In this document: positions 5,190-36,315 of the stretch, piece after piece
Position numbering within the stretch: position 1 is the first letter of the stretch
Layout: each line of letters begins with the position of its first letter
Source: Pseudonocardiales bacterium
GTDB taxonomy: Bacteria; Actinomycetota; Actinomycetes; Mycobacteriales; Pseudonocardiaceae
Length of the DNA: 36,315 nt
Direction: 5' to 3'
Assembly: GCA_026393175.1 (NCBI GenBank)
Contig: JAPLAT010000212.1
Span: 1 to 36,315, forward strand
Translations under genes and position numbers: made by a program
Notes under the pieces: generated by a model
Seen by the model: the letters and a program-made list of their open reading frames with translations, nothing else
Databases searched by the model: none
What the model was told of the DNA's origin: nothing

Positions 5190-5193
<4 letters not shown>
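4672..5193 (-). CDS. Single-domain response regulator (receiver protein)
   Basis: A 173-aa protein with one CheY-like receiver domain (about residues 4-125). The acidic pair is D10-D11, the phospho-acceptor is D54 in ILLDAHMPGMDG, T84 precedes the switch region, and the conserved lysine is K107 in YITKPFDP. The remaining ~45 residues look helical, with no DNA-binding or enzymatic domain. It is therefore probably a phosphate shuttle or an output by protein contact. The GTG start at 5193 overlaps the TGA of the hybrid kinase by 4 nt (GTGA), indicating translational coupling. It is the likely partner or second acceptor of the kinase phosphorelay. Confidence 0.9.
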
Positions 5194-9548
<4,355 letters not shown>

Positions 9549-22752: not shown

Positions 22753-24966
22753 GTGGTGCGCGACAGCAGGGAGACCGACGAGGTCCTGGTCTGCATGGCA
22801 CAACGCCTGCAGGGCCAGGTCGAGCGTCAGCTCACCCTCGTCGAACGGCTCCACGCCGCGGGCCCGGACGACTCGCTCGCCGACCTCGCCGAGCTGCGCA
22901 CCACGCTGCAGCTCTCGCTGCGCGGCATCGAGAACCTGCTGGTCCTGGGCGGGGCGCAGCAGGGGCCGCGCTCCCGGGGGCCGCGCACGGTGGCCGGTGT
23001 GCTCGCCGACGCCCGCGCCGGCGTGGACGACGCCGCCCGCATCGACCTGCGGCCCGCCCCGGACGCCAGCATCGCCCCGCGCGCCGTCGGCAACCTGGTC
23101 GCGCTGTTCACCGAGCTGCTCAGCCACGCGCTGACCGTCTCCCCCGGGCTGTCCGGCGTCGAGGTCACCAGCCGCCGCGCCGAGGACGGCGGGGTCCTGG
23201 TCGAGGTCGCCACCGACGGCGCCGGGCCCACGCCGGGCGAGCTCGACGAGCTCAACCGGCGGCTCGCCGACCGGCCGATCATCGACGACATCGTCTCCAA
23301 CCGGGTCGGGCTGTTCGTCGCCGCCCGGATCGCCGCCCGCAGCGGCGTCACCGTGCGGGTGCAGCACCGGCGGGTCAGCGGCCACGTCGCCGTCGTGCAC
23401 TGCCCGCCGGACGTGCTCGACGCCGTCGGCGTCGAGACCCCCCGCCCGTGGCAGCGCACCGAGCCCGGCCTGGCGCGCGGGCGCGGTCCGAACGGCGCCA
23501 ACGGGTACGGCTACGGGCCTGGTGGGCGGGGAGCGAACGGCTACGCGCCGAACGGCGGCATGCCGAACGGGGTCCCGAAGGGCGGCGTCCCGAACGGGAT
23601 CCCGAACGGCAGCGTTGCGAACGGCAGCGTCCCGAACGGCAGCGTCCCGAACGGCGGCGTCCCGAACGGCAGCCTTCCCCACGGCGGTCTCCCGAACGGG
23701 AACGGCGGCTACGGCAACGGCGGCTACGGCAACGGCGCGTACGGCAACGGCGCGCGCGGGGGCAACGGCCTCGGCACGGCGGGCGGGGGCCGCCCCGAGG
23801 CCCCGGATTCGTTCGGCGCAGATCCGCTCGGCGCAGATCCGCTCGGCGCAGACCCGCGCGGCGCAGACCCGTTCGGCGCAGACCCGTTCGGCGCCGAACC
23901 CTTCCTCCCCGACCCGCGCGGCGACCTGCTCGGCGGGGACCCGCTCGGCGACCCCCTCCGCCCGGGGCCCCGGCCCGACCCCCTGCGCGATCCCCTGCCC
24001 GGGCTGCGCCCCCCGGCCCCGCCCGACCCGCGGCCCGGCGGGTACGCGCCGGGCGGTGTCGACGGCCCCGGCTCCGGCGCGCACGAGCGCCCCGCGCCCG
24101 ATCCGCTCGGCCCCGGTGGGTACGACGCCGTCCAGGGCAGCGGCGGGTACGACCTCGGCGGTCCGGCAGGCGGTGACCGGGCCGGCGCCACGGGTGGGTA
24201 CGACGCCGTCACGAGCAGCGGCGGATACGACGCCGCCCAGCGCACCGGCGGATACGACACCGTCAGCAGCAGCGGCGGATACGACACCGTCCAGAGCAGC
24301 GGCGGGTACGACGCCGCCCGGCGCACCGGCGGGTACGACGCCGTCAGCGGCAGCGGCGGGTACGACGCCCTGGCCACCGCCGCGGGCGACGAGGTCCTCG
24401 GGGGCCTGCCCCTGCGCCGCCCGCGCGGGCCGGACCCCCGCGACTCCGGCGCGTTGGGCCTCACCCGCCGCCCCGACCCGCTGCTCGACCCCCTCCCGCA
24501 GCGCACCCCCGCGCCGTGGGACGCCGACCCGGCGCCGGTGCGCCGCCCCGATCCCGAGCCGGACTTCGGCGGCGCCGACGAACTGTTCGGCCCGCTCACC
24601 AGCAGCCAGCGCGACCGCATGCGCGAGAGCGGCCCGACCCCGATCTACGAGGCCGTCGCCTCGGCCTGGTTCGTCGAGGCGGGCGACGGGGACGGCACCG
24701 TCTCGGACTGGACCAGCCCCGGCGACGCGGAGTGGCGGGCGGCCTCCGAGCGGGCGTCCCGGCAGGCCCCGGAGCAGCACCAGTCCACCGCGGCCGGGCT
24801 GCCGCGGCGCCGCCCCGGCACGCAGATGGTCGCCCCGCCCCGGCACGGCACGCCCGCCCCCGCCGTCGGGTCCCGCGACCGCGAGCCGGAGCGGGTCCGC
24901 GAGCGGCTCGCCGTCTACCAGCAGGGCCTCGAACGCGGCCGCCACCGGGCGTCCGACGCGGAGTAA
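22753..24966 (+). CDS. Soluble CvnA-type histidine-kinase-like ATPase with long repeat region
   Basis: A 737-aa protein with no membrane segment. Residues ~1-75 resemble a dimerisation helix region (LVERLHAAGPDDSLADLAELRTTLQLSLRGIENLLVLGG), and ~95-220 a HATPase-like fold (LFTELLSHALTVSP as N box, VATDGAGPTPGELDELNRRLADRP as G1 region). The N box lacks the canonical Asn, so ATP use is uncertain. The middle contains PNG/GNG repeats (~240-335), GADP repeats (~355-382) and nine GGYD repeats (~455-540). The last ~110 residues (TPIYEAVASAWF, WTSPGDAEWRAA, TAAGLPRRRP, RERLAVYQQGLERGR) match the tail of actinobacterial CvnA/nitrate-sensing kinases. The extracytoplasmic sensor and HAMP of CvnA are missing, as are cvnBCD genes. 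Probably an orphan scaffold or signalling protein. Confidence 0.8.
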   Translation: MVRDSRETDEVLVCMAQRLQGQVERQLTLVERLHAAGPDDSLADLAELRTTLQLSLRGIENLLVLGGAQQGPRSRGPRTVAGVLADARAGVDDAARIDLRPAPDASIAPRAVGNLVALFTELLSHALTVSPGLSGVEVTSRRAEDGGVLVEVATDGAGPTPGELDELNRRLADRPIIDDIVSNRVGLFVAARIAARSGVTVRVQHRRVSGHVAVVHCPPDVLDAVGVETPRPWQRTEPGLARGRGPNGANGYGYGPGGRGANGYAPNGGMPNGVPKGGVPNGIPNGSVANGSVPNGSVPNGGVPNGSLPHGGLPNGNGGYGNGGYGNGAYGNGARGGNGLGTAGGGRPEAPDSFGADPLGADPLGADPRGADPFGADPFGAEPFLPDPRGDLLGGDPLGDPLRPGPRPDPLRDPLPGLRPPAPPDPRPGGYAPGGVDGPGSGAHERPAPDPLGPGGYDAVQGSGGYDLGGPAGGDRAGATGGYDAVTSSGGYDAAQRTGGYDTVSSSGGYDTVQSSGGYDAARRTGGYDAVSGSGGYDALATAAGDEVLGGLPLRRPRGPDPRDSGALGLTRRPDPLLDPLPQRTPAPWDADPAPVRRPDPEPDFGGADELFGPLTSSQRDRMRESGPTPIYEAVASAWFVEAGDGDGTVSDWTSPGDAEWRAASERASRQAPEQHQSTAAGLPRRRPGTQMVAPPRHGTPAPAVGSRDREPERVRERLAVYQQGLERGRHRASDAE
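23490..24375 (+). repeat. In-gene repeats encoding PNG, GADP and GGYD motifs
   Basis: Three blocks lie in one gene: short units encoding (P/G)NG(G/S)V (about 23490-23755), 15-bp units encoding GADP(L/F/R) (about 23815-23900), and nine GGYD units, most spaced 27 bp (about 24118-24375). The reading frame is preserved throughout, so they encode flexible linker sequence. Length variation between strains is likely. Confidence 0.85.
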
Positions 24967-25023: not shown

Positions 25024-26547
25024 GTGGCATCGGCCGAGCAGCACGACCCGCAGTCCATCGCCTACCCCGCCCGCGCCAGGGCCCGCCGCGCCCGGGGGGT
25101 CGAGGTGCTGCCGCCGCACGTCATCGTGCTGTTCGGCGCCACCGGCGACCTGGCCAAACGCAAGCTCCTCCCGGGCCTCGCCCACCTCGTCCAGTCCTCG
25201 TTCACCCCCGAGGTGCGGATCATCGGCACCGCGATGGAGGACCTGGACACCGACGCGTTCCGTACCCTGGCCCGCGACGCGGTGACCCGCTTCGGCACGC
25301 ACCGCCTCGATGACACGGGGATGGGCGGGTTCCTCGAGCGGCTCACCTACGTGCCGCAGGGCGCGGGCCCCGAAGCCCTCACGGCCGCCGTCAAGGACGC
25401 CGAGACGCTGCTCGGCGCCCTGCCCGACTCCCCCGGCGTCCGCAGGCTGCACTACCTGTCGGTGCCGCCCAAGGCCGCGCAGGCCGTCATCGGGATGCTC
25501 CGCGACGCCGACCTCGTCGAGAACTCCCGCGTGGTCATGGAGAAGCCGTTCGGCGACGACCTGGCCAGCGCCATCACGCTCAACGACTTCGTGCACCGGT
25601 ACTTCACCGAGTCGCAGGTGTTCCGCATCGACCACTTCCTCGGCAAGGAGGCGGCACAGAACATCCTGGCGTTCCGGTTCGCCAACGGCCTGTTCGAGCC
25701 GATCTGGAACCGCAACTTCATCGACCACGTGCAGATCGACATCCCCGAGACCCTGGGGCTCGACCAGCGCGCCGACTTCTACGAGGCCACCGGGGCCTAC
25801 CGCGACATGGTCGTCACGCACCTCATGCAGGTCATGGCGTTCGTCGCGATGGAGCCGCCGACGGCGCTGGAGCCGCGCGCGATCAGCGAGGAGAAGAACA
25901 AGGTCTTCCGCTCGATGCTGCCGGTGCACCCGTCGGACGTGGTGCGCGGCCAGTACGGCGGCTACCGCGAGGAGGCGGGCGTCGCCCCGGACTCCGACAC
26001 CGAGACGTTCATCGCGCTCAAGGTCGGCATCGACAACTGGCGCTGGGCGGGCGTGCCGTTCTACCTGCGCACCGGCAAGAAGATGGCCGAGGGGATGCGG
26101 ATCATCTCCATCGCGTTCAAGGAGGCGCCGCGGACGATGTTCCCGGCCGGCTCCGGCGTCGGGTCGCAGGGCCCGGACCACCTGACGTTCGACCTCGCCG
26201 ACTCCTCCCGGGTCTCGCTGTCGTTCTACGGCAAGCGCCCCGGCCCGGGCATGCGGCTGGAGAAGCTGTCGATGCAGTTCTCCACCCAGGAGACCGAGCG
26301 CGCGGGCGACGTCCTGGAGGCCTACGAGCGGCTGATCCTCGACGCCATGCGCGGCGACCACACGCTGTTCACCACCGCGGAGGGCATCGAGTCGCTGTGG
26401 GAGCGGTCGGCACCGCTGCTGGAGGACCCGCCGCCGGTGAAGAACTACCCGCCCGGCACGTGGGGGCCGAACTCGATCCACCAGCTCATCGCGCCGAACG
26501 CGTGGCGGCTGCCGTTCGAGCGGGCGTGGCGGGAGAAGAAGGCCTGA
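25024..26547 (+). CDS. zwf: Glucose-6-phosphate 1-dehydrogenase
   Basis: A 507-aa enzyme of the normal actinobacterial length. It oxidises glucose 6-phosphate to 6-phosphogluconolactone, the entry step of the oxidative pentose phosphate pathway. The nucleotide-binding motif is [16 protein letters not shown] ([10 protein letters not shown] at 38-47). The substrate signature [13 protein letters not shown] starts at R201, with H204 and K208. EKPFGDD and the [12 protein letters not shown] segment are also family features. Start GTG 25024 has TAGGAGG at 25009-25015. The usual partners (tkt, tal, opcA, pgl) are not adjacent, so this is probably a stand-alone or second zwf. Its last 39 codons are duplicated at 28780-28896. 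Confidence 0.96.
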
Positions 26548-26562
26548 CCGCGGAGCGGCTCA
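26545..26562. terminator. Short hairpin joining the zwf and antiporter stop codons
   Basis: TGACCGC (26545-26551) pairs with GCGG-c-TCA (26555-26562) across a 3-nt loop, with one bulged C. The zwf TGA and the antiporter TGA on the opposite strand form the ends of the stem. The stem is short (7 bp), so terminator function is uncertain, but the layout matches two stronger cases in this window. Confidence 0.4.
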
Positions 26563-28645
26563 CGAGCCCGCGGCGGCCGCCGGGACGTCGGGGGCGTCCC
26601 GGTCGGTGACGGTGACGTCGTCGAGGAAGCAGTACGCCCACCGCTCCCCCGGCTCGGCCGACGCCGCGATGGGGTGGTCGGTCTCCTCGTGGTGGGCGCG
26701 GGCGTGCCGCCCGGGCGAGGAGTCGCAACACCCCACGTGACCGCAGCTCAGGCACACCCGCAGGTGCACCCACGTCTCCCCGGCCCGCAGGCAGGCCAGG
26801 CAGGCGCCGGACTGTGCCAGCACCGGGCGCACCGCCGGGCCGTGCGGGCAGCCCGCGTCGGCGGGCCAGCGCACGTCGAGCAGCCGGGTGGTGTCGGCCC
26901 AGGTGCGGTCGGCCTGCGCGGGCAGCGGCGCGGGGGCGACCCCCAGCCGCTCCAGCACGGTGCGCACCAGCCGCGCGCGGGTGGCCAGTCCGGGGTCGAC
27001 GACGTGGTCGACCCCGGTGGCGGCCAGCTCCTCGAGGTCCGCCGCGTCGTTCGGGCGGACGACGACCGGCGCGGCGGTGAGGGACCGGGCGACCGCGGCG
27101 GCGCGGGCGGCGTCCTCGGAGGTGTCCTCGGCGATCACGACGATCCGCGCCGCCGTGATCCCGGCCTCGGTGAGCACGTGGACGTGCCGGGCGTCGCCGC
27201 GCACCACCGGGATCCCCGCGGCCTCGGCCTCCACGGCGCCCTCCGGGTTGAGCGTCGTCATCACCACGTCGACGCCGCGGGCGCGCAGCTCCACGGCCAG
27301 CGCGACCGACGCGTCCCCGTGCCCGACGAGCACGGCGTGGTCGCGGGGCGCCTCCTCGCCGGGCGGCGCCGGCTCGGGCGCGGCGGGGACCCGGCGGCGC
27401 TCGCCCGCGGCGAGGCGCCGGCCGGCCACGGCCAGCAGCGGGGTGGCGATCATGAGCAGGACGGTGGTGGCGACGAACACCTGCGCCCCGTCCTCCCCCA
27501 GCGCGGCCGGGCTCAGTCCGACCGCGACGCCGGCGGTGAGCAGCACGAAGGAGAACTCCCCGACCTGCCCGAGCAGCAGTCCGGTGCTCGCGGCCGAGCG
27601 CCAGCCGACGCGCAGCGGCAGCAGCGCGAGCGTGGTGGTGACCGTCTTGACCAGCAGCACCAGCGCGGCGGCGCCGAGCACGAGCGGCAGGTTCGCCAGC
27701 AGGAAGCCGACGTCGAGCAGCATCCCGACGGACACGAAGAACACCGCGGAGAACATGATCTGCAGCGGCAGCACCTCGGCGAGCGCGTGGGTGCTCTGCC
27801 GGCTCTCGCTGACGATCAGGCCGGCGAGGAACGCCCCCAGCGACACGCTGACCCCGGCCAGTGCGGTGAGCACGGCGGTGCCCAGGCAGATCGCGAGCAC
27901 GGTGAGCAGGAACACCTCGGGGGAGCACAGCGCCGCGACCCGCTCCAGCAGCGGGGGCATCACCCGCCGGGCCACCACCAGCACCACGGCGATGACCAGC
28001 ACCGCCACGCCCAGCGCGCGCACCAGCTCCAGCGGCCCCCCGCCGCCGCCGGTGCCCAGCACCGGCACGACGAGCACCATCGCCACGACGGCCAGGTCCT
28101 GGAAGATCAGCACGGCGAGCGCGAGCCGGCCGCGGACGCTGTTCGTCTCGCCGGCGTCGGACACCAGCTTGAGCACGATCGCGGTGGACGACAGCGCGAT
28201 GAGGAACCCGGTGAAACACGCCGGTGCCGAGGTCGCCGCCGAGGACGGCGACCAGGCCGATCCCGGCGAGCGTGGCCAGCAGCACCTGCGCGCCGCCGCC
28301 GACCACGATCCACCGCCACACGCGGGCCAGCCGGCCGAGGGAGAACTCGATGCCGATGGTGAACAGCAGCAGGATCACGCCGACCTCGGCGACGGCCTGC
28401 ACGGCGCCCTCCCCGGCGACGAGGCCGAGCTGGGCCGGGCCGATGACGACCCCGGCGAGCAGGAAGCCCACGATCGGCACCACGCGCAGCCGCACGCTGA
28501 GGTACCCGACCGCGGCGGCGGCGACCACGAGGACGGCGGAGGTCCCGAGGTACTCGGGAACCCCGGCCTCTGCCGCGAGCACGGTCTCGGCGGCGGACAC
28601 GGTCCCGGTGGCGAGCACGGACCCGGGACCCACCACGCCTCCCAC
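26560..28645 (-). pseudogene. CPA2 cation:proton antiporter-RCK-UBP zinc finger, interrupted by a frameshift
   Basis: Read from GTG 28645, the first ~145 codons encode antiporter membrane helices (VGYLSVRLRVVPIVGFLLAGVVIGP, LLLFTIGIEFSL). The frame then breaks at 28214-28216, an AAA on the plus strand. Dropping one base restores GVFTGFLIALSSTAIVLKLVSDAG and the rest continues intact to 26560; the span of 2086 nt is one over a multiple of 3. The restored protein has a Na/H-exchanger domain (about 30-405), a TrkA-N-like domain (about 425-545, degenerate GHGDAS motif) and a UBP-type zinc finger (about 598-675: CLACLRAGETWVHLRVC, CGHVGCCDSS, HARAHHEETDHP). It would exchange K+ or Na+ for protons. 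The break may be a sequencing error. Several GTG codons near 28645 could be the start. Confidence 0.85.
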
Positions 28646-28779
28646 GCGGCCCGCCCCGGGCGGGACTGCACGACGGGGGCCGAGCCGCCACTGTAGCGGG
28701 CCGCGCGGCCGCCGCGGCGGCGTTCACCTCCCGCTCACCTGCGCGAAGGCCGCTGCTCACCCGGTCGCGGTGACCGGCG

Positions 28780-28896
28780 GACCCGCCGCCGGTGACGAAC
28801 GGCCCGCCGGGCACGAGGGGGCCGAACTCGATCCACCAGGTCATCGCGCCGAACGTCCGGCGGCTGCCGTTCGACCGGGCGTGGCGGGAGAAGGAG
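28780..28896 (+). repeat. Duplicated 3' end of zwf (39 codons)
   Basis: Codon-by-codon alignment with zwf 26425-26541 shows about 11 mismatches in 117 nt and no gaps. It encodes DPPPVTNGPPGTRGPNSIHQ and then VIAPNVRRLPFDRAWREKE, against zwf endings with Y, W, L, A, W, E and K at the changed sites. The similarity stops at the end of the zwf coding region. It has lost the stop codon and remains in frame with the downstream M50 gene. It is a gene fragment with no start of its own; GTG 28792 is inside it. Confidence 0.9.
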
Positions 28897-28950
28897 GAGC
28901 CACCCCGCGACACCGTTAACGGCGCCCCGCTGTCCCGCGACGACGGGGGC

Positions 28951-29622
28951 ATGGTCAGCGACGTGATCGGCCCGGTGACACCCGGGTCCGCGGTCGTGCA
29001 CGTCGCCGGGTTCGTCGCGCTGATGCTCGTGACGTTCACCGGCCAGTGGGCGGGGTCGCTGGTGACCATCGTCCACGAGGGCGGGCACGTCGCCATGGGC
29101 GTGCTGAGCGGTCGACCCGTCACCGGTTTCAAGGTCCACGAAAACCACGCGGACGGCGGTGCGACCGAGGTACTCGGCGGCTGGGGTGTCTCCCGCCTGT
29201 TCGTGGGCGTGATCGGCTACATGACCGCGCCACTGCTCGGGCTGGCCGGTGCGAACCTCGTGCTCGACGGGAAGGCGTGGTCGGTCCTGTGGGCCTCGGT
29301 CTTCCTGCTCGTCTTCGCGCTGCTGCACGCCCGCGACTTCTTCACCAACCTGCTGGTCGTCGGCTACGGCGTGCTCATCGGCTGGGTCGCCGTGTCCGGC
29401 AGCCCGGATCTCCAGGCGACCGTCGCCGTGCTGCTCGTCTGGTGGATGCTGATGGGTGAGTTCCCCGGGCTGGTCGTGCTCGGCGTCGGGGGGAAGGGCA
29501 GGGGCGACCCGGCCTACCTGTCGCACAACACCTGGATCCCGGGCTTCGTCTGGGTCGCCCTCTGGTGGTTCGTCGCGATCGTCTGCCTCTGGGTCGGCGG
29601 GCGGCGCCTGCTGGGCTTCTGA
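28951..29622 (+). CDS. M50 family membrane metallopeptidase
   Basis: A 223-aa membrane protein. The zinc-binding motif is H42-E43-G-G-H46 in VTIVHEGGHVAMG, inside a hydrophobic segment, as in site-2-protease-like M50B peptidases. Four or five further membrane segments follow (LFVGVIGYMTAPLLGLAG, WSVLWASVFLLVFALL, LLVVGYGVLIGWVAV, ATVAVLLVWWMLMG, FVWVALWWFVAIVCLW). No PDZ domain is present. The substrate is unknown. Start ATG 28951 begins the conserved protein; the frame stays open upstream through the duplicated zwf tail to GTG 28792, which I regard as an accident. The ribosome binding site is weak (GACGGGGGC). The gene is convergent with the broken isomerase gene. Confidence 0.87.
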   Translation: MVSDVIGPVTPGSAVVHVAGFVALMLVTFTGQWAGSLVTIVHEGGHVAMGVLSGRPVTGFKVHENHADGGATEVLGGWGVSRLFVGVIGYMTAPLLGLAGANLVLDGKAWSVLWASVFLLVFALLHARDFFTNLLVVGYGVLIGWVAVSGSPDLQATVAVLLVWWMLMGEFPGLVVLGVGGKGRGDPAYLSHNTWIPGFVWVALWWFVAIVCLWVGGRRLLGF

Positions 29623-29654
29623 CCCGCGTGCGCCGCCCGCCGGACCCGGGTCAG
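29619..29654. terminator. Bidirectional hairpin containing both stop codons
   Basis: CTGACCCG (29619-29626) pairs perfectly with CGGGTCAG (29647-29654) across a 20-nt GC-rich loop. The M50 TGA (29620-29622) and the isomerase TGA on the minus strand (29651-29653) sit in the two arms. Likely transcription end for both genes. Confidence 0.6.
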
Positions 29655-30525
29655 GACGAGGAGAAGGCGCTGTCGAAGGCCGCCGACGGCGGGTCGAACG
29701 CCGTGCGGCGGACGAACTCCAGCGCGTCGGGGGCGCCGACGAGCCGGTCCATGCCGGCGTCCTCCCACTCCACCGAGATCGGGCCGTCGTAGCCGATCGT
29801 GTTGAGCATCCGGAAGCACGCCTCCCACGGCACGTCGCCGTGCCCGGTGGAGACGAAGTCCCAGCCCCGCCGGGGGTCGGCCCACGCGAGGTGGCTGCCC
29901 ATCCGCCCGTTGCGGCCGTTGCCGACCTGGCGCTTCGCGTCCTTGCAGTCCACGTGGTAGATCCGGTCGCGGAAGTCCCACAGGAACCCGACCGGGTCGA
30001 GGTCCTGCCAGACGAAGTGCGACGGGTCCCAGTTCAGCCCGAACGCCGGCCGGTGGCCGACGGCCTCCAGCGCGGCGACGGTCGTCCAGTAGTCGTACGC
30101 GATCTCCGACGGGTGCACCTCGTGGGCGAACCGCACCCCGACCTCGTCGAACACGTCGAGGATCGGGTTCCAGCGGTCGGCGAAGTCGCGGTAGCCCGCA
30201 TCCACCATCTCCTGGGGCACCGGCGGGAACATCGCCACGGTCTTCCAGATGCTCGACCCGGTGAACCCGACGACCGTGTCGACGCCCAGCGCCGCCGCGG
30301 CCCGGGCCGTCGTCCGCATCGCGTCGGCCGCGCGCTGCCGCACGCCCTCAGGTTCCCCGTCGCCCCACACCCGCACGACGGGTCCTCCACGGCGGCCCAG
30401 ACGTCGAAGTGGTCGCCCCAGCAGGCGATCTCCAGGCCGTCGTAGCCCCACTCCCCCGCGAGCCGCGCCACCTCCTCGAACGGCAGGTCGGCCCACTGGC
30501 CGGTGAACAGCGTGACGGGCCTCAT
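29651..30525 (-). pseudogene. Sugar phosphate isomerase/epimerase, broken by an internal deletion and frame change
   Basis: The N-terminal frame from ATG 30525 reads [20 protein letters not shown] and continues to [15 protein letters not shown]. It then runs into nonsense. A different frame resumes at [19 protein letters not shown] near 30380 and is intact to the stop at 29651, including [48 protein letters not shown] and [11 protein letters not shown]. From memory, intact relatives have about 40-45 residues between these two parts, including an AISNHLxGQAVCDDPID region that is absent here. The span (875 nt) is not a multiple of 3. It is an AP-endonuclease-2-type TIM barrel, which would isomerise or epimerise the sugar handled by this operon. 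The ATG overlaps the oxidoreductase stop by 4 nt. Confidence 0.85.
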
Positions 30526-31766
30526 GATCCGATCTCCTCCCAGGCGCTCCCGCGGGCGGCCGAGCGCTCCACGGCGTCCAGCACGAGCTGCACCTGCAGC
30601 CCGTCGGCGAACGAGGGCACCGGGTCGGTGCCCGCGGCGAGGTCGCGCACCAGGTCGGCGACCTCGTGGGTGAACGTGTGCTCGTAGCCCAGACCGTGCC
30701 CGGGCGGCCACCACGACCCCGCGTACGGGTGGCCGGGCTCGGTGACCAGGATCCGGCGGAACCCGGCCGTCGCGGCGTCCTCCGTGCCGTCGAAGAACGA
30801 CAGCTCGTTCATCGCCTCGAAGTCGAAGGCCAGCGAGCCGAGGCTGCCGTTGACCTCCAGCCGCAGCGCGTTCTTGCGGCCCGTCGCGAACCGGGTCGCC
30901 TCGAACGACGCCAGCCCGCCCCCGGCGAACCGGCCGAGGAACAGCGCGGCGTCGTCGACGTCCACGGTGCCCCGCCCGGTCCCGCCGGAGGCCGAGAGCC
31001 CGCGGGACTCCGGCATCTCAGCGGTGTCACCCTGCTGCGACCCGGTCGCAGCGGTGTCACCCCCCTGCGACGGGGACGCGGCGGGCAGCGGCCGCTCCCG
31101 CACGAACGTCTCGGTCAGCCCCGAGACGCCGGTCAGCAGGTCGCCCGTGACGAACTGCGCCAGGTCGACGACGTGCGCGCCGATGTCGCCCAGCGCCCCG
31201 GAGCCGGCCCGGTCCCGCTGCAGCCGCCAGACCAGCGGGAACTCCGGGTCGACGATCCAGTCCTGCAGGTAGGTGCCGCGCACGTGCCGGACCTCGCCGA
31301 TCCGCCCGTCGGCCACGAGCTGCCGCGCCAGCGCGACCGCCGGGACCCGGCGGTAGTTGAACCCCACCGTCGAGCGGACCCCGCGGGCCTGCGCCCGGGC
31401 GGCGGCGTCGGCCATCGCCCGCGCCTCGGCGACGGTGTTGGCCAGCGGCTTCTCGCACAGCACGTGCTTGCCGGCCTCCAGCGCCGCGATCGCGATCTCG
31501 GCGTGCGTGTCGCCGGGGGTGCAGATGTCGACGAGGTCGACGTCGCCGCGGTCGAGCAGGTCCTTCCAGTCCGTCACCGACTCCCGCCAGCCCCACCGGG
31601 CCGCGGCCTCGGCGGCGCGGCCGGCGTCGCGCCCGCAGAGGACGGCGAGGTCGGGCTCCAGCGGGAGGTCGAAGAACCGGCCCGCTGTGCGCCACGCCTG
31701 GGAGTGGGCCGCCCCCATGAAGGCGTGGCCCACCATCCCGACGCCCAGTCGCGAGGCCGCCGTCAC
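30522..31766 (-). CDS. Gfo/Idh/MocA family oxidoreductase
   Basis: A 414-aa NAD(P)-dependent sugar or polyol dehydrogenase. The N-terminal Rossmann motif is [18 protein letters not shown]. The conserved [11 protein letters not shown] and [11 protein letters not shown] segments are present. The C-terminal alpha/beta domain includes [16 protein letters not shown], where the histidine and preceding acidic residue sit in the substrate pocket. A low-complexity insertion of about 35 residues (from [19 protein letters not shown] onward) interrupts the C-terminal domain and is encoded by a 30-bp repeat. Start GTG 31766 overlaps the stop of the binding-protein gene by 4 nt, and its own stop overlaps the isomerase start, so the operon is tightly coupled. 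Substrate unknown; inositol-like polyols are common for this gene set. Confidence 0.9.
31012..31071. repeat. Two-copy 30-bp repeat inside the Gfo/Idh gene
   Basis: On the plus strand, two units share GCGGTGTCACCC followed by CTGCGAC, at 31021-31041 and 31051-31071, i.e. spaced 30 bp. Each unit is flanked by GTCGCAG/CTGCGAC-type ends, which makes it partly self-complementary. On the coding strand it reads as Gln/Gly/Asp/Thr-rich linker in frame. It looks like a short intergenic-type repeat that inserted in a surface loop without breaking the gene. Confidence 0.7.
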
Positions 31767-32839
31767 GATTCGAACCCCAGTGGCAGGTAGTCGGCCACGT
31801 TCTCGGCGGTGATGGTGGCGGAGGCGAGCGTGATCGAGGCCGGGACCTCGCGCTCGGCAAGGTCGCCCATGCCGCGCGACTGCGCGATGAGCCGGGCCAG
31901 CGAGATCGCCGAGGACGCCATCGACGGGCTGTAGGTCACGGTCGCCTCCAGCACGGTGTCGCCCGCCTGGATCGAGCGCATGGCGTTGGCCGAGCCGGCG
32001 CCGCCGACCATGAAGAACTCGTTGCGCCCGGCCTGCTGGATCGCGGCGAGCACGCCGATGCCCTGGTCGTCGTCGTGGTTCCACACCGCGTCGAGCTGCG
32101 GGGCGGCCTGGAGCAGGTTCGCGGTGACCCGCTGCCCGCCCTGCGCGGTGAAGTCCGCGGCCTGGCGGGGCCCGACCGCGAAGCCGAAGGCCGACAGCGC
32201 GTCGGCGAAGCCCTGGCTGCGGGCCTGGGTGAGCGGCAGGTTGTCGATGCCGGCGATCTCGCCGATCACCGGGTTCGCCACGCCGGCGTCCCGCAGCCGC
32301 TGCCCGATGTAGGTGCCCGCGGAGACGCCCATGCCGTAGTTGTCGCCGCCGATCCAGGTGCGGTAGGCCAGCGGGGAGTCGAAGATCCGGTCCAGGTTCA
32401 CCACCGGGATGCCGGCGTCCATCGCCTGGCGGCCGACGGAGGTGAGCTGGCTGCCGTCGTTGGGCAGCAGCACCAGCGCGTCGACGCCGCGGTTGATCAG
32501 CGTCTGCACGGCCGCGATCTGCTGCGTGATGTCGTTGGTCGGGTTCACCGCCTCCAGCGTCACGTCCGGGTACTGCTCGGCCTGGGCCGTCGCGTTGTTC
32601 GCGATCGCGGCGATCCAGCCGTGGTCGGCCGCGGGCGCGGAGAACCCGATGGTGACGGGCGTGCCCGCCTCGGCGTTGTCGCCCGCCGCGGCGACGGCCG
32701 GGCCGCCCGCGGGCGCGCCGCCCGCCGGGGCGTTGCTCGTGCACGCCGAGAGCGCGACGGCGCCGCCGAGGCCCAGCGCGCCGGTGAGGAAGCCGCGACG
32801 GCGCAGGACGCCGGTCGGGTCGGGGTGGGATGCAGCCAT
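31763..32839 (-). CDS. Sugar ABC transporter substrate-binding lipoprotein
   Basis: A 358-aa periplasmic-binding-protein-1-like (RbsB/Peripla_BP_4) component. The N-terminus has a twin-arginine stretch (RRRGFLTG), a hydrophobic core and lipobox LSAC with C33 as the lipidation site, followed by an Ala/Gly/Pro linker. The mature fold starts at VTIGFSAPAADHGWIAAI. NRGVDALVLLPND, GIPVVNLDR, WIGGDNYGMGVSAG and AVWNHDDDQGIGVLAAI are typical sugar-binding segments. It captures the substrate for the adjacent permease and ATPase. Start ATG 32839 has AAGGAGT upstream. Its stop overlaps the oxidoreductase start. Confidence 0.94.
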   Translation of the reverse strand: MAASHPDPTGVLRRRGFLTGALGLGGAVALSACTSNAPAGGAPAGGPAVAAAGDNAEAGTPVTIGFSAPAADHGWIAAIANNATAQAEQYPDVTLEAVNPTNDITQQIAAVQTLINRGVDALVLLPNDGSQLTSVGRQAMDAGIPVVNLDRIFDSPLAYRTWIGGDNYGMGVSAGTYIGQRLRDAGVANPVIGEIAGIDNLPLTQARSQGFADALSAFGFAVGPRQAADFTAQGGQRVTANLLQAAPQLDAVWNHDDDQGIGVLAAIQQAGRNEFFMVGGAGSANAMRSIQAGDTVLEATVTYSPSMASSAISLARLIAQSRGMGDLAEREVPASITLASATITAENVADYLPLGFES

Positions 32840-32863
32840 GATCGACTCCTTCGTCGGGGGTGA

Positions 32864-33880
32864 CTAGTCGCGCCGGGCGCGGGTCTGGATCAGCACCGCC
32901 ACGACGATGATCACGCCCTTGGCGATGTTCTGGACCTCGGTGGCGAGGTTGTTGAGCACGAACAGGTTGGTGATGGTGGTGAACACGAGGACGCCGAGGA
33001 TCGAGCCGATCAGCGTCCCCCGCCCGCCCGACAGCAGCGTGCCGCCGATGATCACCGCGGCGATGGCGTCGAGCTCGTAGAGCGTGCCGTGCGTGCTGGA
33101 CCCGGTGGTGGTCAGCGACGCGATCATGATCGCCGCGATGCCGGCGCAGAGCCCGGACACGACGTAGAGCGCGACGGTGTGCCGCCGCACGTCCAGCCCG
33201 GCCAGCCGGGCCGCCTCCGGGTTGCCGCCGATGGCGAACGTGCGCCTGCCGAACGTCGTGCGGTTGAGCAGCACCCAGCCCAGCGCCACGACCACGGCGA
33301 AGACGTAGACCAGCAGCGGGATGCCCAGCGGCCGGGTCGTGGCGATCCCGGCGATCACCGGGTCGACGACGATCTGGCTGCGCCGCCCGGAGATCCGCTC
33401 GGCGAGGCCCTGCGCGGTGATCAGCGCCGCGAGGGTGACGATGAACGGCACGATCCGCCCGTAGGCGATGAGCAGGCCGTTCACCAGCCCCGCCCCGGCC
33501 CCGACGGCCAGCGCGCAGAAGATCATGACCAGCGGCCCGTAGGACTGCGTGGCCACGGTCGTGGCCCACACCGAGGCCAGCGCCATCACCTTGCCGACCG
33601 ACAGGTCGATGCCGCCGCCGATGATCACGAACGTGACCCCGACGGTCAGCACGCCGATGATCGACGCCGAGGTGAGGATCGTCAGCAGGTTGGCCGTGGT
33701 GAGGAACGTGTCGGCGGTGACCGTGCCGACGACCCCCAGCAGCACCAGCACCGCGACCAGGCCGAGGTTGCGCCCGGCGCCGGAGTCGAGCATCCGGGCC
33801 GCCCGGCCCGGCGGCGGGGAGACCGCCACCGGGGGCGGCGTGCTCACCTGCCCCTTCGTCACCGACACCTGCTCAGCCAT
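32864..33880 (-). CDS. Sugar ABC transporter permease (RbsC type)
   Basis: A 338-aa membrane permease of the BPD_transp_2 family. About eight to ten hydrophobic segments are visible after a ~40-residue Pro-rich cytoplasmic N-terminus. Family motifs are TFVIIGGGIDLSVGKVMAL, IVPFIVTLAALITAQGLAER, FAIGGNPEAARLAGLDV (the ATPase-contacting loop) and AAVIIGGTLLSGGRGTLIGS. It forms the channel of the importer, probably as a homodimer. ATG 33880 lies inside the end of the ATPase gene (8-nt overlap), so translation is coupled. Confidence 0.94.
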   Translation of the reverse strand: MAEQVSVTKGQVSTPPPVAVSPPPGRAARMLDSGAGRNLGLVAVLVLLGVVGTVTADTFLTTANLLTILTSASIIGVLTVGVTFVIIGGGIDLSVGKVMALASVWATTVATQSYGPLVMIFCALAVGAGAGLVNGLLIAYGRIVPFIVTLAALITAQGLAERISGRRSQIVVDPVIAGIATTRPLGIPLLVYVFAVVVALGWVLLNRTTFGRRTFAIGGNPEAARLAGLDVRRHTVALYVVSGLCAGIAAIMIASLTTTGSSTHGTLYELDAIAAVIIGGTLLSGGRGTLIGSILGVLVFTTITNLFVLNNLATEVQNIAKGVIIVVAVLIQTRARRD

Positions 33881-35384
33881 GGACCCTCTCCTCGGTTCCC
33901 TGCAGCACCAGGTCCAGCACCCGGCCCTCGTCCAGCTCGTCCGCCGGGCCGGAGTGCACGACCCGGCCCTCCCGCATCACCAGCACCCGGTCGGCCAGCC
34001 CCAGCACCTCCGGCACCTCGCTGGAGACCAGGACGACCGCCACCCCGTCGGCCGCCAGCCTGCGCACGAGCGCGTAGATCTCGCTGCGGGCGCCGACGTC
34101 GACGCCGCGGGTGGGCTCGTCGAGCAGCAGCACCCGGCAGCCCTGCAGCAGCCAGCGGGCCAGCACCACCTTCTGCTGGTTGCCCCCGGACAGCGTCCGC
34201 ACCGGCCGGGTCGGGTCGGGCGGGCGGACGTCGAGCTGGGCGGTGACCTCGCGGGCCGCGCCCACCTCGGCGTCCGGGCTCAGGAACCCGCCCCGGGCGA
34301 AGCGGCGCAGCGCGGGCAGCGACACGTTGCGCGCCACCGGCTCGGCGAGCAGCAGCCCCTGGCTCTTGCGCTCCTCGGGGCTCAGGCCCAGCCCGGCGCG
34401 CACGGCGGCCGGCACCGAGCCGGGCCGCAGGGCCGCCCCGCGCACGCGGACGGTGCCCGCCGTGGCGCGGCGCGCGCCGTAGACGGTCTCCAGCACCTCC
34501 GAGCGCCCGGACCCGACCAGCCCGGCGAGCCCGACGACCTCCCCGGCGCGGACGGTGAACGACACGTCGGCGAACTCGCCGGCCCGCGCGAGCCCCTCGA
34601 CCTCCAGCACCACCTCGGCGCCGGGCTCGCCCACCCGCGGCGGGAAGCTGTGCTCCACGGTCCGGCCGGTCATCAGCCGCACGACGTCCGCGGTGGGGGT
34701 GGTGCGGGCGGGCAGGTCGCGGGCGACGGTGCGCCCGTCCTTGAGCACGGTGACGCGGTCGCCGATCTCGCGGATCTCGGCCAGGCGATGGGAGATGTAG
34801 ACGACGGCGACGCCGTCGGCGGTCAGCTCGCGGACCACGCGGAACAGGTTGCGCACCTCCTCCGGGTCCAGCACCGCCGACGGCTCGTCCATGACGATGA
34901 GCCGGGCGTCGCGGGCCAGCGCCCTGGCCATGCTCACCACCTGCTGCCCGGCCGCGGAGAGCCGCCCGAGCTCGCGGCGCACCGGGATCTCCGGGTGCCC
35001 GAGGCGCGCGAGCAGGTCGCGCGCCAGCCGCTCGGCGTCGCGGGGGCGGGTGAAGCCGTACCGGGAGGGCTCGCGCCCGAGCACGACGTTCTCGGCGACC
35101 GAGAGGCCCGGCACGAGGTCGAGCTCCTGGTGGATCGTCGCGATCCCGGCGACGTCGGCGGCGTGCGGCGAGGCGAACGAGACCGGCTGCCCGTCCCACA
35201 CGACCTCGCCCGCGTCCGGCCGGTGCGCCCCGGCCAGGACCTTGATCAGGGTCGACTTGCCCGCGCCGTTCTGGCCGAGCAGGCAGTGCACCTCGCCCGC
35301 GACGACCCCGAGGTCGACGCCGTCGAGCGCGCGCACTCCGGGGAACTCCTTGACGATCCCCCGCATCTCCAGCAGGTCCGCCAC
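33873..35384 (-). CDS. Sugar ABC transporter ATP-binding protein (RbsA type, two nucleotide-binding domains)
   Basis: A 503-aa duplicated ATPase. Domain 1 (about 5-240) has Walker A GQNGAGKST (37-45), signature LSAAGQQVVSMARAL and Walker B LIVMDEPSA. Domain 2 (about 260-500) has the degenerate Walker A GLVGSGRSE typical of RbsA/MglA, signature LSGGNQQKVVLARWL and Walker B VLLLDEPTRGVD. LSPEERKSQGLL is also characteristic. It powers sugar import with the permease and lipoprotein. Domain 1 reads LSAAGQQ instead of the usual LSxGQQQ, a mild oddity. Start GTG 35384 has GGGAGG about 6 nt upstream. It is first in the operon, divergent from the ROK repressor. Confidence 0.94.
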   Translation of the reverse strand: MADLLEMRGIVKEFPGVRALDGVDLGVVAGEVHCLLGQNGAGKSTLIKVLAGAHRPDAGEVVWDGQPVSFASPHAADVAGIATIHQELDLVPGLSVAENVVLGREPSRYGFTRPRDAERLARDLLARLGHPEIPVRRELGRLSAAGQQVVSMARALARDARLIVMDEPSAVLDPEEVRNLFRVVRELTADGVAVVYISHRLAEIREIGDRVTVLKDGRTVARDLPARTTPTADVVRLMTGRTVEHSFPPRVGEPGAEVVLEVEGLARAGEFADVSFTVRAGEVVGLAGLVGSGRSEVLETVYGARRATAGTVRVRGAALRPGSVPAAVRAGLGLSPEERKSQGLLLAEPVARNVSLPALRRFARGGFLSPDAEVGAAREVTAQLDVRPPDPTRPVRTLSGGNQQKVVLARWLLQGCRVLLLDEPTRGVDVGARSEIYALVRRLAADGVAVVLVSSEVPEVLGLADRVLVMREGRVVHSGPADELDEGRVLDLVLQGTEERVHG

Positions 35385-35428
35385 CGGTCGCCTCCCACCA
35401 CGTCGTGTCGGGAGGGACCGTAGGAGCG

Positions 35429-35458
35429 TTGACCAGTGCCGTACAACGTCGCGATAAT
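35429..35458 (+). promoter_or_regulatory. Candidate sigma-70-type promoter of the ROK gene, with nearby dyad
   Basis: TTGACC (35429-35434) and GATAAT (35453-35458) are each one base from consensus and are 18 bp apart, about 35 nt before the ROK start. Between the -10 and the start codon lies TTCCGGCCGAAA (35475-35486), symmetric at 10 of 12 positions, a possible operator. The same 109-bp gap must hold the promoter of the ABC operon on the other strand, which I cannot place. Confidence 0.5.
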
Positions 35459-35493
35459 GCCGCTTCTCGTCATATTCCGGCCGAAATGAGTTC

Positions 35494-36315
35494 GTGATGC
35501 TGGACCTCCCGCCGCTGCGCCTGTCGTCCCCGGCGCTGGCCGGACGCGCGGGCGCGGCGGTCACGCTCAGCACGCTGGCCCGGCTCGTCGCGTCCGGCGC
35601 GGCGGTGAGCAAGGCCGACCTCGTGCCGGCCTCCGGGCTGGCCCGCACCACCGTCAGCACGGCGGTGGACGAGCTGCTCGAGCGGGGCGTGCTGCGCCTG
35701 GACGGCACGCGGCCCACGGCCGGGCGGGGCCGCCCCGCCGACCGGCTGGCGCTCGACCCGCACGGCGGGCACGTCCTGCTCGCCGACGTCGGCGCCCGCG
35801 GCGCGCACCTGGCCGTGGTGGACCTGAGCCAGCGGGTGCTCGCCCACGAGCACACCGAGCTCGACGTCCGCGACGGGCCGCGGGCCGTGCTGGACCGCGT
35901 GGAGTCCCGGCTCGAGGCCCTGCAGGCCGGCTCGGCCGTGCCGGTGCGGTCGGTGGTGATCGGGCTGCCCGGCCCGGTCGACGGCCGCCTCGGCGCCCCG
36001 GTCCGGCCGCCGATCATGCCCGGCTGGCACGCCTACCCGGTCTCCGCGCGGCTGCGCGAGCGGTTCGGCGCCCCCGCCGTGCTGGAGAACGACGTCAACC
36101 TGCGCGCGCTGGGCGAGGCCAGGGCGCTGCCCGCGGACCAGGTCCCGCTGCTGTTCGTCAAGGTCGGGACGGGGATCGGCGGCGGGCTCGTGGACGTCAC
36201 CGGCGGGCTGCACCACGGGGCCGACGGCGCGGCGGGCGACATCGGCCACGTGCGGGTGCGCGGCGCCCCCGACGAGGCGTGCGTGTGCGGCAACGTCGGG
36301 TGCATCGAGGCCGTC
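35494..36315 (+). CDS. ROK family transcriptional repressor, 3'-truncated by the window
   Basis: The frame is open from GTG 35494 (or ATG 35497) to the window end, giving 274 codons without a stop. The N-terminal winged helix (about 20-85) includes SKADLVPASGLARTTVSTAVDELLERGVL. The ROK sugar-kinase-like domain follows: LLADVGARGAHLAVVDL as the phosphate-1-like region, GLPGPVD, LENDVNLRALGEARAL and FVKVGTGIGGGLV. At the edge lies the zinc motif CVCGNVGCIE. NagC/XylR-type members bind a sugar and release DNA. Divergence from the ABC operon indicates that it controls sugar uptake and itself. The C-terminal ~120 residues are outside the window. Confidence 0.92.
   Translation, partial: MMLDLPPLRLSSPALAGRAGAAVTLSTLARLVASGAAVSKADLVPASGLARTTVSTAVDELLERGVLRLDGTRPTAGRGRPADRLALDPHGGHVLLADVGARGAHLAVVDLSQRVLAHEHTELDVRDGPRAVLDRVESRLEALQAGSAVPVRSVVIGLPGPVDGRLGAPVRPPIMPGWHAYPVSARLRERFGAPAVLENDVNLRALGEARALPADQVPLLFVKVGTGIGGGLVDVTGGLHHGADGAAGDIGHVRVRGAPDEACVCGNVGCIEAV

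Follow-up and report, generated by a model that had tools for sequence, protein, structure and literature searches.

The 3' end of zwf, the gene for glucose-6-phosphate dehydrogenase, occurs twice in the window, the whole 36,315-base stretch of Pseudonocardiales DNA analysed here. One copy completes an intact gene, while the other lies in front of an M50 peptidase gene as a remnant without a stop codon, and an antiporter gene on the minus strand separates the two. The remnant is a non-functional, lineage-specific duplicate of the zwf end that was probably, though by no means certainly, produced when the antiporter integrated at the zwf 3' end.

A duplicated gene end

In the repeat search, the remnant aligns with the zwf end over 122 bases without gaps, and 110 of these are identical (90%), leaving 12 differing sites and a longest exact run of 23 bases. 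The copies are 2355 bases apart. In a search of the bacterium's own genome (5.5 Mb in 712 contigs), the remnant and zwf matched with E = 3.9e-42 and 167 bits, and no comparable third copy was found there, the next best match reaching 40.1 bits. Similarity breaks off sharply at both ends of the remnant, and the 60 bases upstream of it are without zwf similarity. G+C content around the remnant is 71-77%. An earlier note, made from the sequence alone, had described a gap-free copy of about 90% identity that had lost its stop codon. This is borne out, with the copy a little longer (28776-28897) than the 28780-28896 given then. The placement described there was also seen, with the antiporter between the copies and the frame open from the remnant into the M50 open reading frame (ORF). 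Among the papers listed in literature searches, none was seen to describe this zwf fragment.

Table 1. Positions of the zwf repeat pair, its neighbours and the proposed junctions in the window.
Feature	Position	Strand	Basis or remark
Left flank, ending at the HATPase gene end	9000..24962		Matches G067:C1:5328337-5345762, pieces in the same order
zwf, glucose-6-phosphate dehydrogenase, intact, functional copy	25024..26547	+	Pfam G6PD_N, G6PD_C
Parent segment, last 122 bases before the stop region of zwf	26421..26542	+	Repeat family D2
Left junction, between the ends of zwf and the antiporter	26543..26562		Similarity stops at 26542; antiporter ORF ends at 26560 (-)
KefB-type cation:proton antiporter, frameshifted, N-terminal limit approximate	26560..28645	-	Pfam on both halves; 24 homologues matched across two frames
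Remnant, decayed second copy of the zwf 3' end	28776..28897	+	Repeat search, genome search, site patterns
Right junction, between the remnant and the native M50 leader	28898..28912		CCGTTAACG at 28913-28921
Block: M50, TIM barrel, GFO/IDH/MocA, ABC transporter, part of ROK gene	28937..36315		Matches G067:C1:4695944-4703399
M50B-like peptidase gene, proposed start ATG 28951	28951..29622	+	Pfam Peptidase_M50B; MVSDVIG

Origin from the neighbouring zwf

The remnant most plausibly arose as a copy of this zwf after the lineage had split from the sampled relatives. Both copies were examined site by site against the 3' ends of 32 orthologous zwf genes from other genomes, 19 of them from a search of 59 genomes and 13 added. 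Both copies carry T at 26473/28828 (Ser for Ala), where all 32 related zwf ends have G. At ten of the 12 differing sites, the remnant's base occurs in no relative with a letter there (32 relatives, or 28 at 26539), and at six of these ten sites all 32 relatives agree with zwf. Counted against this reading are two third positions, 26454 and 26502, at which the remnant has the commoner base (23/32 and 19/32) and zwf the rarer one. The sequence nearest to the remnant is this zwf (110/122), while any relative reaches at most 103/122.

Taken together, the private base shared by both copies and the private differences of the remnant point to a duplicate of this zwf and not to a diverged paralogue. 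The latter origin, raised as a possibility in the earlier note, does not hold up: the base common to both copies is found in 0/32 relatives, the differences are mostly private and mostly non-synonymous, and the remnant does not group with another zwf lineage. A tree of zwf 3' ends that included the fragment had been proposed as a check. It pairs the remnant with this zwf as expected of a duplicate, but weakly, with a support of just 0.39 (FastTree on 38 codons).

No second zwf end was found in the 59 other genomes, for each of which 14 candidate places were scored; 19 genomes had one strong match each (87-134 bits), and the next best match was 54 bits. The age of the event can be roughly bracketed using the congener G067. 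The two copies differ at 9.8% of sites, whereas the fourfold-degenerate sites of five genes of the block to the right of the remnant differ from those of G067 by 31-41%. Because of this contrast, the duplication is probably younger than the split from G067.

The substitutions are as expected for a coding sequence that is free of selection, within the limits of a small sample. Across 26422-26541, nine of the ten differing codons encode another amino acid, with two changes from Trp to Arg. In the 38-codon core (26425-26538), 7 of the 8 differing codons are non-synonymous, against a mean of 7.2 expected under random substitution, and the three codon positions carry 4, 3 and 3 of the ten base differences. 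The five nearest zwf relatives, which have 9-11 differences, show only 2-4 non-synonymous changes among 7-10 changed codons, with 5-8 differences at third codon positions. Pooled over all 32 relatives, differences by codon position number 118/87/276. With ten differences, the remnant does not depart significantly from this pool in its share of third positions (Fisher p = 0.11). Non-synonymous changes are also numerous in the pool (165/379 changed codons), and both results count against the favoured reading. The earlier impression that the substitutions preserve most amino acids is true only insofar as most codons are unchanged. Derived from the neighbouring zwf and apparently unselected, the remnant has the features of a decayed partial gene duplicate, or pseudogene fragment.

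A rearranged neighbourhood

Both flanks of the window match the same congener, G067, at 78-86%, in two different places, and the zwf of G067 lies in a third (C1:3834416-3835892, 80% DNA identity). The left-flank match, for which the window was compared from 9000 onwards, stops 61 bases before zwf; G067 carries extra DNA between some of the matching pieces. On the right, the match resumes within 15-40 bases of the remnant, with the blastn match to G067 running from 28937. Two further features were seen in the left part of the window. Tandem 27-base repeats at 24115-24408 encode units of the GGYD type towards the C-terminus of the HATPase protein, and a hybrid histidine kinase at 5190-9545 (-) has eight HAMP matches along with GAF, HisKA, HATPase and receiver domains.

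The block of M50, TIM-barrel, oxidoreductase and ABC-transporter genes (28937-36315) seems to have been relocated as a whole in one of the two lineages, this one or that of G067; its far edge is past the end of the contig. In G067, M50 and a glyoxalase-family gene are arranged head to head. The counterpart of that glyoxalase gene in the bacterium's own genome is on contig C709, where it adjoins the gene at C709:12652-13137. The latter gene is 78% identical in amino acids to the G067 gene past the other end of the M50 block. At the own-genome counterpart of the G067 zwf site, a PfkB-type kinase gene and the downstream match are found on contig C145 with no zwf between them. On contig C3 (L160), the stretches 5286-6072 and 6096-6847 match the same G067 gene, a probable gene duplication.

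This zwf itself seems to change place often. Its product is about 73-84% identical in amino acids to those of the 32 orthologues. The surroundings of 21 of these were viewed over longer stretches, in part truncated by contig ends, and those of the other 11 over about 1.5 kb of flank. In a rough clustering of 19 genomes (L065-L083), zwf neighbours agree in about five pairs and hardly otherwise. The own genome has three zwf homologues, the other two being on contigs C706 and C460.

Contexts of M50 homologues were read in nine other genomes with a match at E <= 1e-36 (G007, G015, G021, G024, G033, G062, G067, G075 and G069, the last with its contig assigned by coordinates), some of them ending at contig ends. 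None of these contexts contains a zwf or the antiporter, and a separate small zf-UBP gene was seen in G021 only. Among the named relatives, a profile search of contigs with an M50 alignment gave two loci, each with an M50 homologue at 47% and with neither zwf nor antiporter. In G021 (L084 8854-9817), the M50 homologue (54-56%) is followed directly by the small zf-UBP gene, while in the window the zf-UBP domain is fused to the antiporter. No relative with the window's gene order was found, and hence no case of what the earlier note named as refuting it, this order without zwf-like sequence. Nor was any genome found in which zwf and the antiporter are neighbours or zwf and M50 adjoin without the antiporter; intermediates are thus unseen.

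The antiporter

Within 26543-28775, the antiporter is the sole convincing gene. Its product has TrkA_N and zf-UBP domains (Pfam), and it is interrupted by a frameshift near 28214-28215, on both sides of which it is about 50-67% identical to homologues. Either the gene was recently broken or the frameshift is a misread or assembly error.

The antiporter is probably a foreign, acquired piece. A full-length version was found in 0/22 other congeners, with only a partial match in G022. Across the order, 25 of the 397 genomes sampled have one, counting the bacterium's own. The other 24 include five from the same family and none from this genus. In this survey, three candidate places were scored per genome and genomes without a match were not all listed; since the survey names just two congeners, it is chiefly the set of 22 that speaks for absence from the genus. 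In the stretches read for 21 of the 24 antiporter-bearing relatives (20 and G043), neither zwf nor M50 lies beside the gene. The proposal that recombination at zwf ends brought in an antiporter-M50 block stands in part. The junction is there, with the flanks and zwf in three places in G067, but joint arrival of antiporter and M50 is not supported, as the M50 contexts read lack an antiporter and the antiporter relatives read lack M50 and zwf. A plasmid donor was likewise rejected: zwf relatives reach at most 71% identity among the 10 plasmid records listed out of 159, and a single record holds an antiporter, at 42% identity.

Proposed integration at the zwf 3' end

We infer that entry of the antiporter caused the duplication, and the same qualification applies to the recombination type and the sequence of events given below. 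The antiporter probably came in at the zwf 3' end, either through illegitimate recombination or on a molecule that bore part of the zwf end and integrated there in a single crossover. Either would leave about 122 bases of zwf on both sides of the antiporter. The inner copy would still complete zwf and remain under selection, while the outer copy, in the gap between the divergent antiporter and M50 genes, would lose its stop codon and drift. The M50 block would have been joined downstream of zwf by another rearrangement, earlier or simultaneously. Entry at the zwf end is the shortest path from zwf to the order zwf-antiporter-tail. A direct partial duplication of the target flanks the antiporter, itself absent at full length from the 22 congeners. 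A donor with a zwf end beside an antiporter was not seen in the 21 antiporter relatives read; one plasmid has an antiporter, of 42% identity.

The main rival is a lost second copy of this zwf, which yields the same end product. A full copy would have stood before M50, and all but its last 39-40 codons would have been deleted, perhaps when the antiporter entered. This is a possible but rather doubtful alternative. The remnant ends where zwf ends and has the private base of this zwf, as a second copy would. However, a large extra deletion is required, zwf similarity is missing from the 60 bases upstream, and a full second zwf before M50, which the earlier note had suggested looking for in related genomes, was absent from all M50 homologue contexts read. 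The idea that a second zwf locus once lay here thus keeps this modest standing for a copy of this zwf, and none for a diverged paralogue.

The reading frame into the M50 gene

Could the remnant now serve M50 as a promoter, as a 5' leader or by extending the protein at its N-terminus? From 28792 onwards the frame runs open through M50, and the remnant occupies much of the gap between two divergent genes. Such use is nevertheless improbable. Recognisable M50 similarity begins near ATG 28951, where MVSDVIG is common to the G067 and G075 homologues, and protein matches begin at MVSDVIG or at most 13 codons upstream. Within the 276-residue M50 ORF, in which the ATG is residue 54, they start at residue 48 (G067) and 41 (G075). 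No N-terminal extension of the ORF was found in homologues, and the M50 start is probably ATG 28951. Upstream of this ATG, the frame stays open for 59 codons in the window; in G067 and G075, which have no zwf remnant there, it does so for 565 and 128 codons. An open frame therefore means little, being common at such DNA composition, and the remnant is probably in frame with M50 by chance. The codon changes also look unselected, and a promoter scan found no sigma-70-like site, with none expected by chance, which carries little weight for an actinobacterium. It seems very improbable that the zwf tail has been exapted, whether as a transcribed leader or promoter region for the two divergent genes, antiporter and M50, or, in translated form, within a 53-residue extension of M50 in this lineage.

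The M50 gene appears to have kept its own leader. CCGTTAACG lies 38 bases before the M50 ATG in both the window and G067, and the 38-base leaders are identical at 25/38 positions. The right junction is placed directly at the remnant end because of this match.

Comparison with known systems

Integrative elements typically show direct repeats on either side of a foreign gene that sits at a conserved gene's 3' end. The zwf ends could accordingly be the attachment-site repeats of an element that brought the antiporter into zwf 3' ends, and the layout of the repeats around the antiporter resembles this. Unlike such elements, the interval holds a one-gene insert and no integrase; neither an integrase nor a transposase was found by Pfam among 14 window proteins. 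Use of the same site was also not seen elsewhere (0/59 other genomes with a second zwf end), making this reading highly improbable.

Homology-facilitated illegitimate recombination offers another parallel. From tests of this process in E. coli, one study (PMC3240628) describes integrants with 109-950 bp duplications of the lacZ end, ascribed to single crossovers in which the circles lacked a part of it. As at the zwf locus, part of a gene end was duplicated beside inserted DNA, and the size range brackets the 122 bp found here. Unlike here, where donor and mechanism are inferred, the lacZ end was on the donor plasmid and recombinants were selected. Orphan 3' gene ends and immunity genes left by incoming modules at T6SS and Rhs loci, as discussed in PMC5361080, provide a further comparison, as incoming DNA pushes an old gene end downstream and leaves an orphan tail. 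There, different alleles displace each other and the phylogenies argued against duplication, whereas the remnant is a duplicate of the same gene.

An assembly chimera is the least probable explanation. In its favour is the quality of the draft genome, with 712 contigs and 5.66% contamination, but 12 differences and no exact run above 23 bases make the repeat a poor bridge for misassembly and both flanks match the same congener.

Significance

The remnant probably does nothing and reveals no new system. It looks like ordinary genome debris, a decaying by-product of DNA rearrangement in one lineage. Its open frame has a practical consequence, as the M50 start may be set too far upstream by gene callers. 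The remnant marks a site where several rearrangements meet, and, as a small and roughly datable scar, it suggests that the duplication took place after the split from G067.
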